Positions 27,041 to 37,599 of a DNA stretch of 64,000 bases are shown here, piece after piece; positions within the stretch are counted from its first letter, which is position 1; every line of letters starts with the position of its first letter. Source of the DNA: Cellulomonas wangleii. GTDB taxonomy: Bacteria > Actinomycetota > Actinomycetes > Actinomycetales > Cellulomonadaceae. The stretch covers positions 62,001 through 126,000 of the forward strand of contig NZ_CP074405.1 of NCBI RefSeq assembly GCF_018388445.1. The letters run 5' to 3'. The position numbers and the translations under genes are program-made. Under the pieces are notes generated by a model that saw only the letters and a program-made list of their open reading frames with translations, did not search any database and had not been told where the DNA came from.

Positions 27041-28564
27041 ATGGCGTGGTTCCGCGTCGCAGCGCCCTGCCGCCCTGCGACGCGTGCCCGGCTGACGGCA
27101 GCGGGCCTGCGCGACGCGGACGCGGCGGACGCCGACGGACGAGCGGTCGCGGCCGACGAGCCCGGCGTCGTGCTGCTGACCGACCCGCACGCGGCACCTG
27201 ACCCGGCGCGGCTCGCCGACAGCCCCGGCCGGGTCCTCGTGGCCCTCGCACCCGGCGTCGACGTCGACCCGTGGTCGCTGCTCGCGTGCGGGGCGGCGGA
27301 CGTCGTGCACCTCACCGGCGACGACCTGCGGCCCGTGCTCGACCGGCTGCGCCGGTGGCAGGACGTCGACGAGCTCGTCCGTGCGGAGGCCCGGCGGGCA
27401 GGTGCGATCGGCACGTCGTCGGCCTGGCGGCTGTTCCTGCGGGACCTCGTCGAGGTGGCGCGCTGGTCGACCGCGCCCGTGCTGCTGCTGGGGGAGACGG
27501 GCGCCGGCAAGGAGGTCGCGGCGCACATCGTGCACCGCGTGGACCTGCGACGACGCGAGCACGAGCTCGTCCTGCTGGACTGCACGACCGTCGTGCCGAC
27601 GCTCTCCGGCAGCGAGTTCTTCGGGCACGAGAAGGGGGCCTTCACGGGTGCGACGACGGCCCACGAGGGCGCGTTCGCGCGCGCTGACGGCGGCACGCTC
27701 TTCCTCGACGAGGTCGGTGAGCTGCCCGCGGCGCTGCAGGCCGCGCTGCTGCGCGTCGTGCAGGAAGGGACCTACCAGACGGTCGGCGGCACGCGGCGCC
27801 GCCGCACGGACTTCCGGCTCGTCGCCGCGACCCACCGCGACCTGCGGACCGAGGGGTTCCGCGCGGACCTGTACCACCGGCTGGCGGCCACGACGCTCCG
27901 GGTCCCGCCCCTGCGCGAGCGCCCCGACGACGTGCTGCCGCTGTTCCGGCACTTCCTCGCCGAGCAGCGGCTCGGCGGTGACGTCGCAGCGGTGCGCGCG
28001 GCGGTACGCCACCGGCCGTCGGTCGAGGCCGGGAGCGACGAGGCAGAGGACGCCCCCGAGGTGTCGCGCGAGGTCGCGGACGCGCTGCGCGGCCACGACT
28101 GGCCGGGCAACGTGCGCGAGCTGCGGCAGCTCGCGGCGCGGGTGGCCGCGCGGCACGTCGGCGACGGTCCCGTGACGCCGGGCGACCTGCCCCCGGAGGA
28201 CCGTCCCGTCCGGGCCGTCACCGCGCCGGCCGTCACCGCGCCGGCCGTCACCGCGCCGGCCGTCACCGCGCCGACCGTCACCGCGCCGGCCGTCACCGCG
28301 CCGCACCCGTCGTCCCTCACCGCTGGGACCCCGTGGGAGTCCGGGCTCGAGAGCGCGGTGCGGGAAGCGCTGAGCGCGGGCGTCGGCCTGCAGGAGCTCA
28401 AGGCCCGCACGGCCGACGTCGCCACGCGCGTCGCCCTCGACGTGGGCGGCGGCACGGTCGCCGCCGCCCGGCTGCTCGGCGTGAGCCGCCGCGCGCTCGG
28501 CTACCGCACGGCGGCGCGGGCCCGTCCTCAGCCGACGGACCCCAGCTCGGACGCGAGCTCGTAG
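27041..28564 (+). CDS. Sigma-54-dependent activator (bacterial enhancer-binding protein)
   Basis: 507 residues from ATG 27041. Residues 1-107 form a degenerate sensory domain with a receiver-like end (LACGAADVVHLTGDDLRPVL) but no phospho-Asp pocket I can identify. Residues 125-375 are the AAA+ domain: Walker A GETGAGKE (151-158), the sigma-54 contact loop GAFTGA (199-204) exact, Walker B TLFLDEVGEL (219-228), PLRERPDD (290-297) and sensor II HDWPGNVREL (352-361). A linker of six PAVTA units leads to a Fis-type HTH (about 468-490, 'GGGTVAAARLLGVSRRALGY'). Its cognate sigma factor is encoded at 36364-37599. Three-prime overlap of 37 bp with the last gene of the operon it probably controls. Confidence 0.92.
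   Translation: MAWFRVAAPCRPATRARLTAAGLRDADAADADGRAVAADEPGVVLLTDPHAAPDPARLADSPGRVLVALAPGVDVDPWSLLACGAADVVHLTGDDLRPVLDRLRRWQDVDELVRAEARRAGAIGTSSAWRLFLRDLVEVARWSTAPVLLLGETGAGKEVAAHIVHRVDLRRREHELVLLDCTTVVPTLSGSEFFGHEKGAFTGATTAHEGAFARADGGTLFLDEVGELPAALQAALLRVVQEGTYQTVGGTRRRRTDFRLVAATHRDLRTEGFRADLYHRLAATTLRVPPLRERPDDVLPLFRHFLAEQRLGGDVAAVRAAVRHRPSVEAGSDEAEDAPEVSREVADALRGHDWPGNVRELRQLAARVAARHVGDGPVTPGDLPPEDRPVRAVTAPAVTAPAVTAPAVTAPTVTAPAVTAPHPSSLTAGTPWESGLESAVREALSAGVGLQELKARTADVATRVALDVGGGTVAAARLLGVSRRALGYRTAARARPQPTDPSSDASS
28214..28303 (+). repeat. Six 15-bp tandem repeats inside the activator gene
   Basis: The unit GCCGTCACCGCGCCG is repeated six times in register (28214-28303); only the fifth copy differs by one base. 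It encodes an AVTAP (PAVTA) linker between the AAA+ domain and the DNA-binding domain. In-frame copy-number change would alter linker length. Confidence 0.9.
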
Positions 28565-29124
28565 AGGTACTCCGCGATCTCCTTCCACGCGACGTCCGCG
28601 CCCTTCTGCTGCGGCTGCTTCTTCGGCGTGAGGTCGTAGGCGTCGCGGTAGTTCGAGAACCGGTAGAACGCGTACCTGACCAGCGGCTCGACCATCGACC
28701 CGCGGACGACCGGTCCGACGTCCCGGCCCCACCGCGGTTCGGTGTGCGCGGGGAGCGCGAGCGGCGCGGGGCTCAGCGCGTACCAGTCGCCGAGCCTGCC
28801 CAGCCACGCGACGAGGTCCTTGTCCGCGGGGCGGGCCGGGGGCGTCGTGCTCGTGGTGGTCGGCACCAGCAGGTACGGCATGACGGCGCGCGGCGCGAGG
28901 TCGCCCGGCTGGTGGCGGTAGGTCAGCAGGAACGCCTGCTGGTACGGCTGCTTCGCCTCGGCCTTGTGCTTCTGGATGCTCTTGAGCCCGGCGAGGACGC
29001 CGCGGACGTTGTGCGGCTTCACCTCGGCGAACCCGAGCTTCCCCGCGCTGTACGCGGGCACGGGCTTCCTCGACAGCGGCGGCGCCGGCAGCATCGTCCC
29101 CGGCTCGATCATGATGCTCGACAT
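28528..29124 (-). CDS. Unknown protein, last gene of the sigma-54 operon
   Basis: 198 residues, no signal peptide and no membrane helix. It has a Lys/Gln-rich early part (LKSIQKHKAEAKQPYQQAFL), a Pro/Thr stretch (TTTSTTPPARPADK), and a conserved-looking aromatic end ('RYAFYRFSNYRDAYDLTPKK' then 'AWKEIAEYLYELASELG'). ATG 29124 has GAGGAG 7 nt upstream. Follows the amidohydrolase gene by 30 bp and so is probably the seventh gene of the operon. Family not recognised. Confidence 0.6.
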   Translation of the reverse strand: MSSIMIEPGTMLPAPPLSRKPVPAYSAGKLGFAEVKPHNVRGVLAGLKSIQKHKAEAKQPYQQAFLLTYRHQPGDLAPRAVMPYLLVPTTTSTTPPARPADKDLVAWLGRLGDWYALSPAPLALPAHTEPRWGRDVGPVVRGSMVEPLVRYAFYRFSNYRDAYDLTPKKQPQQKGADVAWKEIAEYLYELASELGSVG

Positions 29125-29154
29125 GTCGGTCTCCTCGCGTGGATCGGTCCCGGC

Positions 29155-36313: not shown

Positions 36314-36363
36314 CCGCACCGCCGACCCGGAGCACGTCGACCCCGACGACCAGGCGCGTCCGC

Positions 36364-37599
36364 TCACCGAGCGGTGGACGGGGTCGCGCGGTACTTCGCG
36401 ACCGTGCGGCGGGCCACGCGGATGCCGCGGGCCGCGAGACGCTCGGCCGCCTCGGCGTCGGTGTGCGGCGGGTCGTCGGACGCGAACAGGGCCGCGACGG
36501 CGTCGCGCGCAGCGAGGGACGTGCCGAACAGGTCGGCGAGCGGCAGCACGCGGCGGCCCGGCAGCGCGACGACCGCCCCGGCGACGACGCGCGAGACGGT
36601 CGACGCGTGCAGCCCCAGGCGGGCGGCCACCTGCGCGCGGGTCAGGGGCTGGTGCGCCGACGGCCCGTGCCGGACGAAGCCCTCCTGCACCTCCACCGCC
36701 ACCGCGGTGACGCGGCGCAGCGTGTCGGCACGCCGTCCCAGCAGGTAGACGAGCTGCCGGGCCGCCGAGACGTGGGCGTCGCGCCACGCGGCCGCCGCCG
36801 CGTCGAGCGGCAGGGCGGTGAGCTCGTCGTCGAGCCTGATGCCGAGGTCCTCCGGCCCGAGCGCGTCGACGACGAGCCGCCCGTCGACCTCACGGACGAC
36901 GACGTCCGGCGGTGTCGCGGGGCCGTCGGACGCGCCACGGGGCAGCGGTGCGGGCGTCAGGCGCCGCACGACGTGCATCGCCGCCTCGAGCGCCGCCGGC
37001 GACGCGCCGACGTCCCGCGCGAGGTCCGGGGTGCCGATGCGGGGGAGGTGGTCGCGGACGAGCACGAGCGCGAGGTCCGGCGCGCCGTGCCGCACGTGCC
37101 AGCGCGCCTGCGCGACGAGGCTCGCGCGCAGCCCGCGCTCGGCCGTGCCGGGGGGCGCGACGGCGCGGACAGCGGCCAGGGCGGCCGCGAGCCGCGGTGC
37201 CGGCGGGTCGGGTGCGTCGGACGGCAGCAGGCCGCGGTCGTCGAGGAGCGCGACGGCCGCGTCGACGTCGTCCTCCGCACCCGGCGGGACCAGGGCTCGC
37301 GCGTCGCGGCGGACCCGGTCGCGCTCGTCCGCCGGCGCGGCGGGGTCCTGGGAGCGCAGATCGGCCCCGGAGCCGCTGCACGTCGGGCACCGGCCGCGGT
37401 GCAGCGTCGAGGCGCACCAGCGGCACCGCCGGGGGGTCCCTCGCACGAGCGCCGGGTTGTCGGCCACCCGGGCGTCGACGTCCGCGTCGACGTCGGCCTG
37501 CGTCGCGGCGAGCACGTCGAGCAGCTGCCGCGCGACCGTGGTCAGCGTGGCGTGCTGCTCCAGCCCGTGCTCCGTCGCCGGGCCGTGGACCGGCTCCAC
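36364..37599 (-). CDS. rpoN: RNA polymerase sigma-54 factor (RpoN family)
   Basis: 411 residues from GTG 37599. Region I (about 9-53: 'EQHATLTTVARQLLDVLAAT', then DVDARVADNPAL) matches the activator-interacting domain. Instead of an acidic region II there is a zinc-ribbon-like motif, Cys59-x2-Cys62-x8-Cys71-x2-Cys74. The core-binding part spans about 120-250. The HTH (319-341, 'LTRAQVAARLGLHASTVSRV') and the RpoN box ARRTVAKYR (396-404) are exact family signatures; the box is identical to that of E. coli. It directs polymerase to -24/-12 promoters and needs an AAA+ activator, which lies at 27041-28564. GACACT (37611-37606) is 6 nt before the start, so the message may be leaderless. Confidence 0.95.
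   Translation of the reverse strand: MEPVHGPATEHGLEQHATLTTVARQLLDVLAATQADVDADVDARVADNPALVRGTPRRCRWCASTLHRGRCPTCSGSGADLRSQDPAAPADERDRVRRDARALVPPGAEDDVDAAVALLDDRGLLPSDAPDPPAPRLAAALAAVRAVAPPGTAERGLRASLVAQARWHVRHGAPDLALVLVRDHLPRIGTPDLARDVGASPAALEAAMHVVRRLTPAPLPRGASDGPATPPDVVVREVDGRLVVDALGPEDLGIRLDDELTALPLDAAAAAWRDAHVSAARQLVYLLGRRADTLRRVTAVAVEVQEGFVRHGPSAHQPLTRAQVAARLGLHASTVSRVVAGAVVALPGRRVLPLADLFGTSLAARDAVAALFASDDPPHTDAEAAERLAARGIRVARRTVAKYRATPSTAR

Follow-up and report, generated by a model that had tools for sequence, protein, structure and literature searches.

A predicted private sigma-54 regulon linked to a seven-gene operon in Cellulomonas wangleii and other actinobacteria

Our analysis of a 64-kb stretch of the Cellulomonas wangleii genome (the window: 64,000 nucleotides, positions 62001-126000 of a complete, single-contig genome of 4,076,825 bases, or 4.08 Mb) supports a model whereby a diverged sigma-54, the only strong sigma-54 activator of the genome and a seven-gene operon that is their sole predicted target very probably form a mobile block. 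In this model, the activator would bind two palindromes on one face of the helix, contact RNA polymerase held at a -24/-12 site by the private sigma-54, and open the promoter by ATP hydrolysis, and the sigma-54 gene would have joined the operon because the hosts were without sigma-54. The block spans about 10.5 kb, and its nearest named relatives are in Cellulomonas (P0001, Cellulomonas sp. Sa3CUA2; P0244, C. dongxiuzhuiae). As a sequence-only reading of this DNA had claimed, a sigma-54 gene and the gene for a GAFTGA activator bracket the operon: PF00158 and the sigma-54 DNA-binding (Sigma54_DBD) and core-binding (Sigma54_CBD) domains are matched, and the activator gene (plus strand) and the sigma-54 gene (minus strand) flank seven minus-strand genes (35518-28528) that are separated by 11-30 bp or overlap, the last of which overlaps at its 3' end with the end of the convergent activator gene. 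The features are as follows.

27041-28564, plus strand: sigma-54 activator, an AAA+ enhancer-binding protein with GAFTGA (PF00158, E 2.8e-49)
28528-29124, minus strand: operon gene 7 (g2), unassigned, with matches in actinobacterial loci alone, often weak
29155-29925, minus strand: operon gene 6, amidohydrolase-type (its Nitrosomonas homologue matches PF04909, E 8e-17)
29922-30986, minus strand: operon gene 5, a BioF/serine-palmitoyltransferase-like pyridoxal phosphate (PLP) enzyme (PF00155, E 4e-8; TIGR00858, E 1.4e-17, under its cut-off)
30998-32521, minus strand: operon gene 4 (g5), present in many phyla (759 proteins at E<=0.001; structural model with a predicted local distance difference test score, pLDDT, of 76.7)
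32533-33903, minus strand: operon gene 3 (g6), HEVGHQ zinc-metalloprotease-type (HE[VI]GH motif; model pLDDT 88.3)
33900-34865, minus strand: operon gene 2 (g7), with a SEWSGE-rich acidic N-terminus and a hydrophobic glycine-rich middle
34877-35518, minus strand: operon gene 1 (g8), of the family of g7 (1150 proteins at E<=0.001)
35563-35578, minus strand: candidate -24/-12 promoter, TGGCACGGAACGTGCA
35611-35622: predicted proximal enhancer palindrome, GAA-N6-TTC
35631-35642: predicted distal enhancer palindrome, GAA-N6-TTC
36364-37599, minus strand: private sigma-54 gene, with a CxxC-N8-CxxC insert, an intact RpoN box (ARRTVAKYR) and a GTG start at 37599

The candidate promoter TGGCACGGAACGTGCA (35578-35563, minus strand) lies 44 nt before the ATG of g8, scores 13.5 of 14.5 points and outscores every other site in the 850-bp gap that separates sigma-54 from the operon. 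The sequence-only reading had put the promoter at TGGCACG-N4-TTGC; the -24/-12 site is there, but one base differs (GTGC). Our comparison used the best 80 of 220 loci from a g5-alignment scan of named genomes, a sample selected by g5 similarity. Among the 70 loci that were promoter-scored, two of which (L055 and L056) are duplicates of Cellulomonas loci, 50 reached the threshold of 12.5 of 14.5 points, and 47 ranked at p<0.05 against random segments of their own locus. The exact 16-mer TGGCACG-N4-KTGCA stands at the operon in 15 of 18 operon-bearing actinobacterial genomes (the carriers: the 14 of the census given below, the window's own genome, G000, and G031, G090 and G099). A chance promoter was rejected, since distant genomes repeat both the site and the enhancer upstream of this operon.

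The predicted enhancer is a pair of palindromes: exactly two GAA-N6-TTC palindromes occur in the 64-kb window, 20 bp apart and both upstream of the operon promoter. When the spacer of GAA-Nk-TTC was varied from k=0 to k=13 and copies were counted over the 260 bp that precede the -24 element, at loci with a promoter site (which excludes L058 and L060), k=6 was the sole peak, with 32 copies in 16/16 actinobacterial loci against 0.79 expected and 76 copies in 36/37 loci of other phyla against 3.84 expected; the other spacers gave 0-2 and 0-9 copies, respectively, and the next highest, k=9, gave 9 copies in other-phylum loci with 3.83 expected. The proximal pair is spaced by 20 bp (8 loci), 31-32 bp (2) or 42-44 bp (6) in actinobacteria and by 41-42 bp in 35/36 loci of other phyla, the remaining one having 32 bp. 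Spacings of 20, 31 or 42 bp approximate two, three or four turns of the helix, so that both palindromes would share one face. The pair is probably the binding site of the activator. The window's genome has a single match to the pair pattern CGAA-N6-TTC-N8-33-GAA-N6-TTC, at the operon, and G031, G024 and G065 (the latter two among the 14 census genomes) likewise have one only. Four of the six Cellulomonas carriers have a single pair, G099 has a second place, and neither G090 nor G618 has a match to the pattern, the copies there not fitting it.

We also rechecked 20 low-scoring and 15 unscored loci by scanning up to 4.3 kb with no background count, so that some of the pairs may be due to chance. 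A pair 18-45 bp apart, mostly 40-43 bp, was found in 17 of the 19 non-actinobacterial loci with at least 2 kb upstream, including loci of Myxococcota and Bacteroidota; L075 and L130, with at least 2 kb upstream, had none. Among the Bacteroidota loci, L075, L086, L121 and L133 score 9.5-12 of 14.5 at the -24/-12 site (L112 fell outside the scoring), and the activators of these five loci deviate from GAFTGA (GSFTNA, GAFTNA, GAFTHA, GSYTGA); L086, L121 and L133 show the enhancer pair and belong to three sampled hosts with sigma-54.

The activator of the window carries a Sigma54_activat domain (167.5 bits) and the GAFTGA loop, and its Fis-type helix-turn-helix (PF02954) scores 16.6 bits against a cut-off of 22. 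GAFTGA is found in 65 of the 75 activator frames scanned, and most of the others read GAFTNA, GSFTNA, GAFTSA, GAFTHA, GSFTGA, GSYTGA or GAYTGA. A scan of the whole genome gave one Sigma54_activat match at E 4.4e-50, the only strong activator. The same holds in all 18 carriers, each with one activator at E<=3e-49 and the next best match in any of these genomes at 5e-9, and two non-carriers (Microbacterium SS28 and Nocardioides Soil805) have no activator match better than 1.2e-8. With one sigma-54, one strong activator and one enhancer pair in 4.08 Mb, the proposal of a dedicated private system made in the sequence-only reading holds up: a scan for other promoters found the 16-mer twice in the genome, the second copy without an enhancer pair, and a scan for other activators found no second strong one. 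A global regulator was rejected on the same grounds, as the genome showed neither another strong activator nor another enhancer pair.

The private sigma-54 of the window passes the cut-offs for both PF04963, the core-binding domain (38.9 bits against 22.9, E 1e-9), and PF04552, the DNA-binding domain (86.9 bits against 22.8, E 1.6e-24), and the single Sigma54_DBD match in the whole genome indicates one sigma-54 gene. It is 94% identical to the sigma-54 of C. dongxiuzhuiae (P0244). The private sigma-54s keep a region I-like sequence with an invariant NPxL and the helix-turn-helix (STVSR or close), and 14 of 16 have RRTVAKYR or a close RpoN box. An insert with CxxC...CxxC follows region I in 13/16, a pair that is found in 0/32 of the other rows in our tree, and this insert probably binds zinc. 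Autoregulation of the sigma-54 and activator genes was rejected, as neither GAA-N6-TTC nor a match to the one -24/-12 pattern tried lies within 400 bp upstream of either gene.

Sigma-54 and the operon occur together in actinobacteria. In the family survey, g5 was present in 6/221 genomes and a full sigma-54 in the same six, a result in favour of the sequence-only reading, which had proposed conservation of the block across genomes as a check; Sigma54_DBD was matched at E<=0.001 in 27/221 genomes and at E<1e-22 in these six only, the other 21 being partial helix-turn-helix matches of 1.9e-4 or weaker, one of them just above the cut-off. In a sample of the phylum, Sigma54_CBD was found in 16/396 genomes, none of which, besides the window's own, is nearer than 'same phylum'. 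The five other Cellulomonas carriers have the activator, the seven genes and sigma-54 in identical order within differing flanks: both flanks of the window recur in L049 and L051 and only the gcvP side in L050, L052 has two genes of the window's left flank, but beside sigma-54, and L048 has none of five tested flank genes. A census of 16 of the 17 Actinomycetota loci (L131, on a 6.7-kb contig, was left out) found exactly one Sigma54_CBD match in 14/16 genomes, within the operon locus in 12/14; in Arthrobacter nitrophenolicus and Agromyces luteolus, sigma-54, promoter and g8 lie together at a contig end. The remaining two, Microbacterium SS28 (L077) and Nocardioides Soil805 (L097), have a g5 homologue on its own, with no operon, sigma-54 or strong activator. 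Each of the 18 carriers has a single sigma-54 gene, which is linked to the operon, and a single strong activator.

A plus-strand open reading frame (ORF; 35690-36310) in the gap between sigma-54 and the operon has no Pfam or NCBIfam match. It is not counted as part of the block because, of the five other Cellulomonas carriers, L050 has it whole and L051 in part, and it was not seen in the other three.

The operon extends far beyond actinobacteria. By phmmer on locus ORFs, g8/g7, g6, g5, the PLP enzyme, usually the amidohydrolase, and the activator, mostly convergent at the operon 3' end, recur in six phyla (Pseudomonadota, Myxococcota, Bacteroidota, Planctomycetota, Nitrospirota and Actinomycetota), and no sigma-54 gene was found near the operon in the non-actinobacterial loci within flanks of up to 10 kb. 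In a sample of 16 of the 63 other-phylum loci, all 16 hosts have a better-scoring sigma-54 (best match at least 106.9 bits against at most 93.2 in the private set), two of them with two sigma-54 matches. The regulon spans phyla and is apparently portable, and the linked sigma factor appears to be an actinobacterial addition, points beyond the reach of the sequence-only reading.

In a sigma-54 tree of 48 rows, the 16 private sigma-54s form one clade (support 99/97). Separate from it stand 13 further RpoNs of the phylum, L053 and L054, and 16 of 17 other-phylum rows; its sister row is L204, from a metagenome-assembled genome of Thermoflexales (Chloroflexota), on a long branch. The contig of L204/L207 (G641) stops at the RpoN gene, and the operon of the same genome is L095. 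L053 and L054 (G559 and G503), from the same phylum as the window, have a distant sigma-54 in a clade of its own (100/100). An activator lies some 1.1-1.2 kb from it, and in the 19 kb read none of the operon genes is matched; the two are perhaps a second kind of linked sigma-54 system.

In a tree of 64 g6 proteins, from which 12 Janthinobacterium loci, duplicates and loci lacking a complete g6 were omitted, those of 17 actinobacterial loci group in a single clade (100/100). Sigma-54 and g6 agree closely in their pairwise distances (r 0.98 in 16 loci, 0.96 in 18), and rpoB distances correlate with both at r 0.85 in the 18 loci because close relatives are close in all three genes. When the Cellulomonas set, the Geodermatophilaceae pair and the Arthrobacter group were dropped to leave a congener-free set, r was 0.762 for sigma-54 and g6, 0.105 for sigma-54 and rpoB, and 0.187 for g6 and rpoB. 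Nocardioides zg-1308 and Agromyces luteolus are 75.5% identical in rpoB, 90.6% in g6 and 68.2% in sigma-54; Rhizocola and Paractinoplanes are 92.1% identical in rpoB, 32.1% in sigma-54 and 53.0% in g6. Because the distances of sigma-54 and g6 agree and neither tracks rpoB, we infer that sigma-54 and the operon were probably transferred repeatedly as one unit. In the Cellulomonas genome G090, two equal rpoB matches (3196159 and 3285179) are separated by about 89 kb, which may reflect a large duplication or an artefact of assembly.

Several observations weigh against our model. Of the 70 scored loci, 20 fall under the promoter threshold of 12.5, including L049, L052 and L068, in which a site is present elsewhere. 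Across the 18 carriers, 16 of 31 occurrences of the 16-mer lie away from the operon; in the window's genome, where one of two copies is at the operon, the other (genome 3674723) is apparently intergenic, about 180 bp upstream of a lipoprotein-like ORF, and has no enhancer pair. Most carriers outside Cellulomonas have further enhancer-like pairs elsewhere. Three further PF00158 matches in the genome (E 1e-7, 1.2e-6 and 4.3e-5; 33, 29.6 and 24.5 bits against 20.2) all pass the Pfam cut-off; they sit in different long frames, AAA+-like and 862, 1130 and 569 amino acids in length, and PF00158 gives matches in all 14 control genomes, including archaea. The two Geodermatophilaceae loci (L058 and L060) lack a standard -24 element and contain just one full palindrome, and Pfam region I (PF00309) was undetected in the window's sigma-54.

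A rival reading is a wider regulator, with promoters that lack the enhancer pair or depart from the consensus. The looser pattern TGGCAC-N5-KTGC has 24 matches in the genome, and of the 23 besides the operon's, 5 lie outside coding-like frames, one of them a full 16-mer. Yet the 24 matches fall short of the 148 obtained with a reversed-pattern control, 18 of the 23 are in coding-like frames by a crude test of third-position GC content, and with one strong activator and one enhancer pair in the genome no second target is expected, which makes a wider regulator improbable. The prediction of a sole target is cleanest in Cellulomonas, given the 16 of 31 16-mers elsewhere and the extra enhancer-like pairs in most other carriers.

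It could also be argued that the sigma-54 is a decayed relic and that a standard sigma-70-type promoter drives the operon, as the weak core-binding score of the sigma-54 and its lack of a PF00309 match might suggest; a 2025 survey (PMC12316311) judged actinobacterial RpoN non-functional on such scores. PF00309 is among the precomputed matches for some relatives. A relic would, however, tend toward loss or uncoupling, whereas every one of the 14 named actinobacterial genomes that carry the operon has sigma-54, the helix-turn-helix and RpoN box are kept across distant hosts, and the paired enhancer is kept in 16/16 loci with a -24/-12 site. We consider a relic very improbable and a working private sigma-54 the better account.

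In the Geodermatophilaceae loci L058 and L060, the RpoN box is altered to SRSAVRKYR. Their promoter candidate, GCGCACGCTTCTTGCA, no longer has the TGG of the -24 box (GCGCACG versus TGGCACG) and keeps TTGCA; a full palindrome and a degenerate one are 42 bp from each other (as read by eye), and the activator sits upstream of sigma-54 on the same strand. The covariation of RpoN box and -24 element, seen in a single lineage, is no more than suggestive.

Among the operon's products, the metalloprotease-type protein g6 has HEVGH, or HEIGH in two cases, in each of 79 locus copies (two of them duplicates), and H200, E201, H204 and E244 are invariant in 24 aligned sequences, E244 being the probable third ligand. 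Its model (pLDDT 88.3) weakly resembles the M48 protease BepA (YfgC) by VIA-align, but g6 matches neither BepA nor any other protein by PDB sequence or by Foldseek at E<=0.001. The g5 model consists of an immunoglobulin (Ig)-like N-terminal domain (Ig/fibronectin type III-like by VIA-align for residues ~1-95) and a helical part; no PDB relative by sequence and no Foldseek match at E<=0.001 were found. For g5 and g6 alike, such a lack of matches does not show that relatives are absent. The N-terminal parts of g7 and g8 have charges of -25 and -14, and each is followed by a glycine-rich hydrophobic stretch (+6 and +5, respectively, over 62 residues). No family above cut-off was found for g2 (28531-29124, minus strand); it has a sub-threshold Tox-REase-9 match (E 0.03) and could have a nuclease fold.

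It is possible, though rather unlikely, that g7 and g8 are processed by the metalloprotease g6, exported, and act on cell envelopes. Alternatively, the operon may encode a small-molecule pathway based on a PLP acyltransferase and an amidohydrolase, with g7 and g8 as scaffolds and not exported effectors, a reasonable possibility that we nonetheless place below even. BioF-like and amidohydrolase-like genes are indeed found in most loci, and PF04909 in the one other-phylum copy that was scanned. Against such a pathway, operons of other phyla, from which 13 accessory proteins (3 + 10) were scanned, add proteins that would suit an envelope function: PG_binding_1, Peptidase_M74 or OmpA domains are found in those with an acidic leader (read by eye), and Amidase_2, papain or trypsin domains in separate proteins. 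M20 was also found among the separate proteins, and matches to SLT and M35 were under their cut-offs. A defence system was rejected, as PADLOC matches were weak (E 1e-4 or weaker) and to accessory proteins of relatives, and so was a phage origin, as PHROGs matches of g8 were weak (E 0.0007 or weaker); the stronger PHROGs matches (1e-8 and 9e-11) fall on peptidoglycan-binding and OmpA-type proteins of relatives.

A broader scenario, to which we would give slightly less than even weight, is that of a self-sufficient mobile regulon, in which a cross-phylum antagonism or envelope system took sigma-54 into sigma-54-free bacteria and made of it an orthogonal zinc-ribbon factor reading one promoter, with the -24 and RpoN boxes changing together in one lineage.

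Housekeeping RpoN (Escherichia coli, Pseudomonas, Bacillus SigL) shares with the private sigma-54 the DNA- and core-binding domains, the RpoN box, the -24/-12 site and an AAA+ activator, whereas the private sigma-54 belongs to a diverged clade, has the CxxC...CxxC insert in 13/16 cases, is linked to one operon and has, in each genome, a single strong activator and apparently a single target. The sigma-54 systems of Chlamydia and Borrelia are regarded as remnants of vertical descent whose targets are unlinked. These small-genome systems likewise have one activator per genome, according to PMC3162934; the private system differs in being linked and seemingly acquired. RpoN2 of Rhodobacter sphaeroides is also a sigma-54 devoted to one gene system, flagella, but stands beside other RpoNs (PMC12316311), whereas the private sigma-54 is its host's only one and seems to travel with the operon.

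PMC3162934 (2011) describes Actinobacteria as without a sigma-54 system, and PMC12316311 (2025) reports RpoN in 4/173 actinobacteria, one of them misclassified and the others set aside on similarity and Pfam scores, and concludes that the phylum 'effectively lacks a functional RpoN'. The survey also names RpoN exceptions in Cyanobacteria. Among the actinobacterial names that it sets aside, two touch the operon family: Alloactinosynnema sp. L-07, which has a g5 homologue (P0062), and Modestobacter marinus, a congener of Modestobacter excelsi (L060), in which sigma-54, activator, g8, g7, g6, g5 and the PLP enzyme are present. Because promoter, enhancer, activator and operon are conserved, we argue, contrary to the survey, that the actinobacterial sigma-54 genes probably work. 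Our literature search, whose scope did not extend to subscription journals and preprints, found no report of an actinobacterial sigma-54 operon.

These results argue against the rule that Actinobacteria are without a working sigma-54 and may account for the few 'odd' RpoN genes left aside by the 2025 survey (PMC12316311). They define a conserved operon in many phyla, whose enhancer signature can reveal further copies. The private sigma-54 would offer a natural system of one sigma factor, one activator and apparently one promoter in which to study how sigma-54 specificity evolves, and is a candidate orthogonal switch for high-GC hosts. Finally, moving gene clusters may carry with them the sigma factor or transcription machinery that they need, an idea that is now testable.

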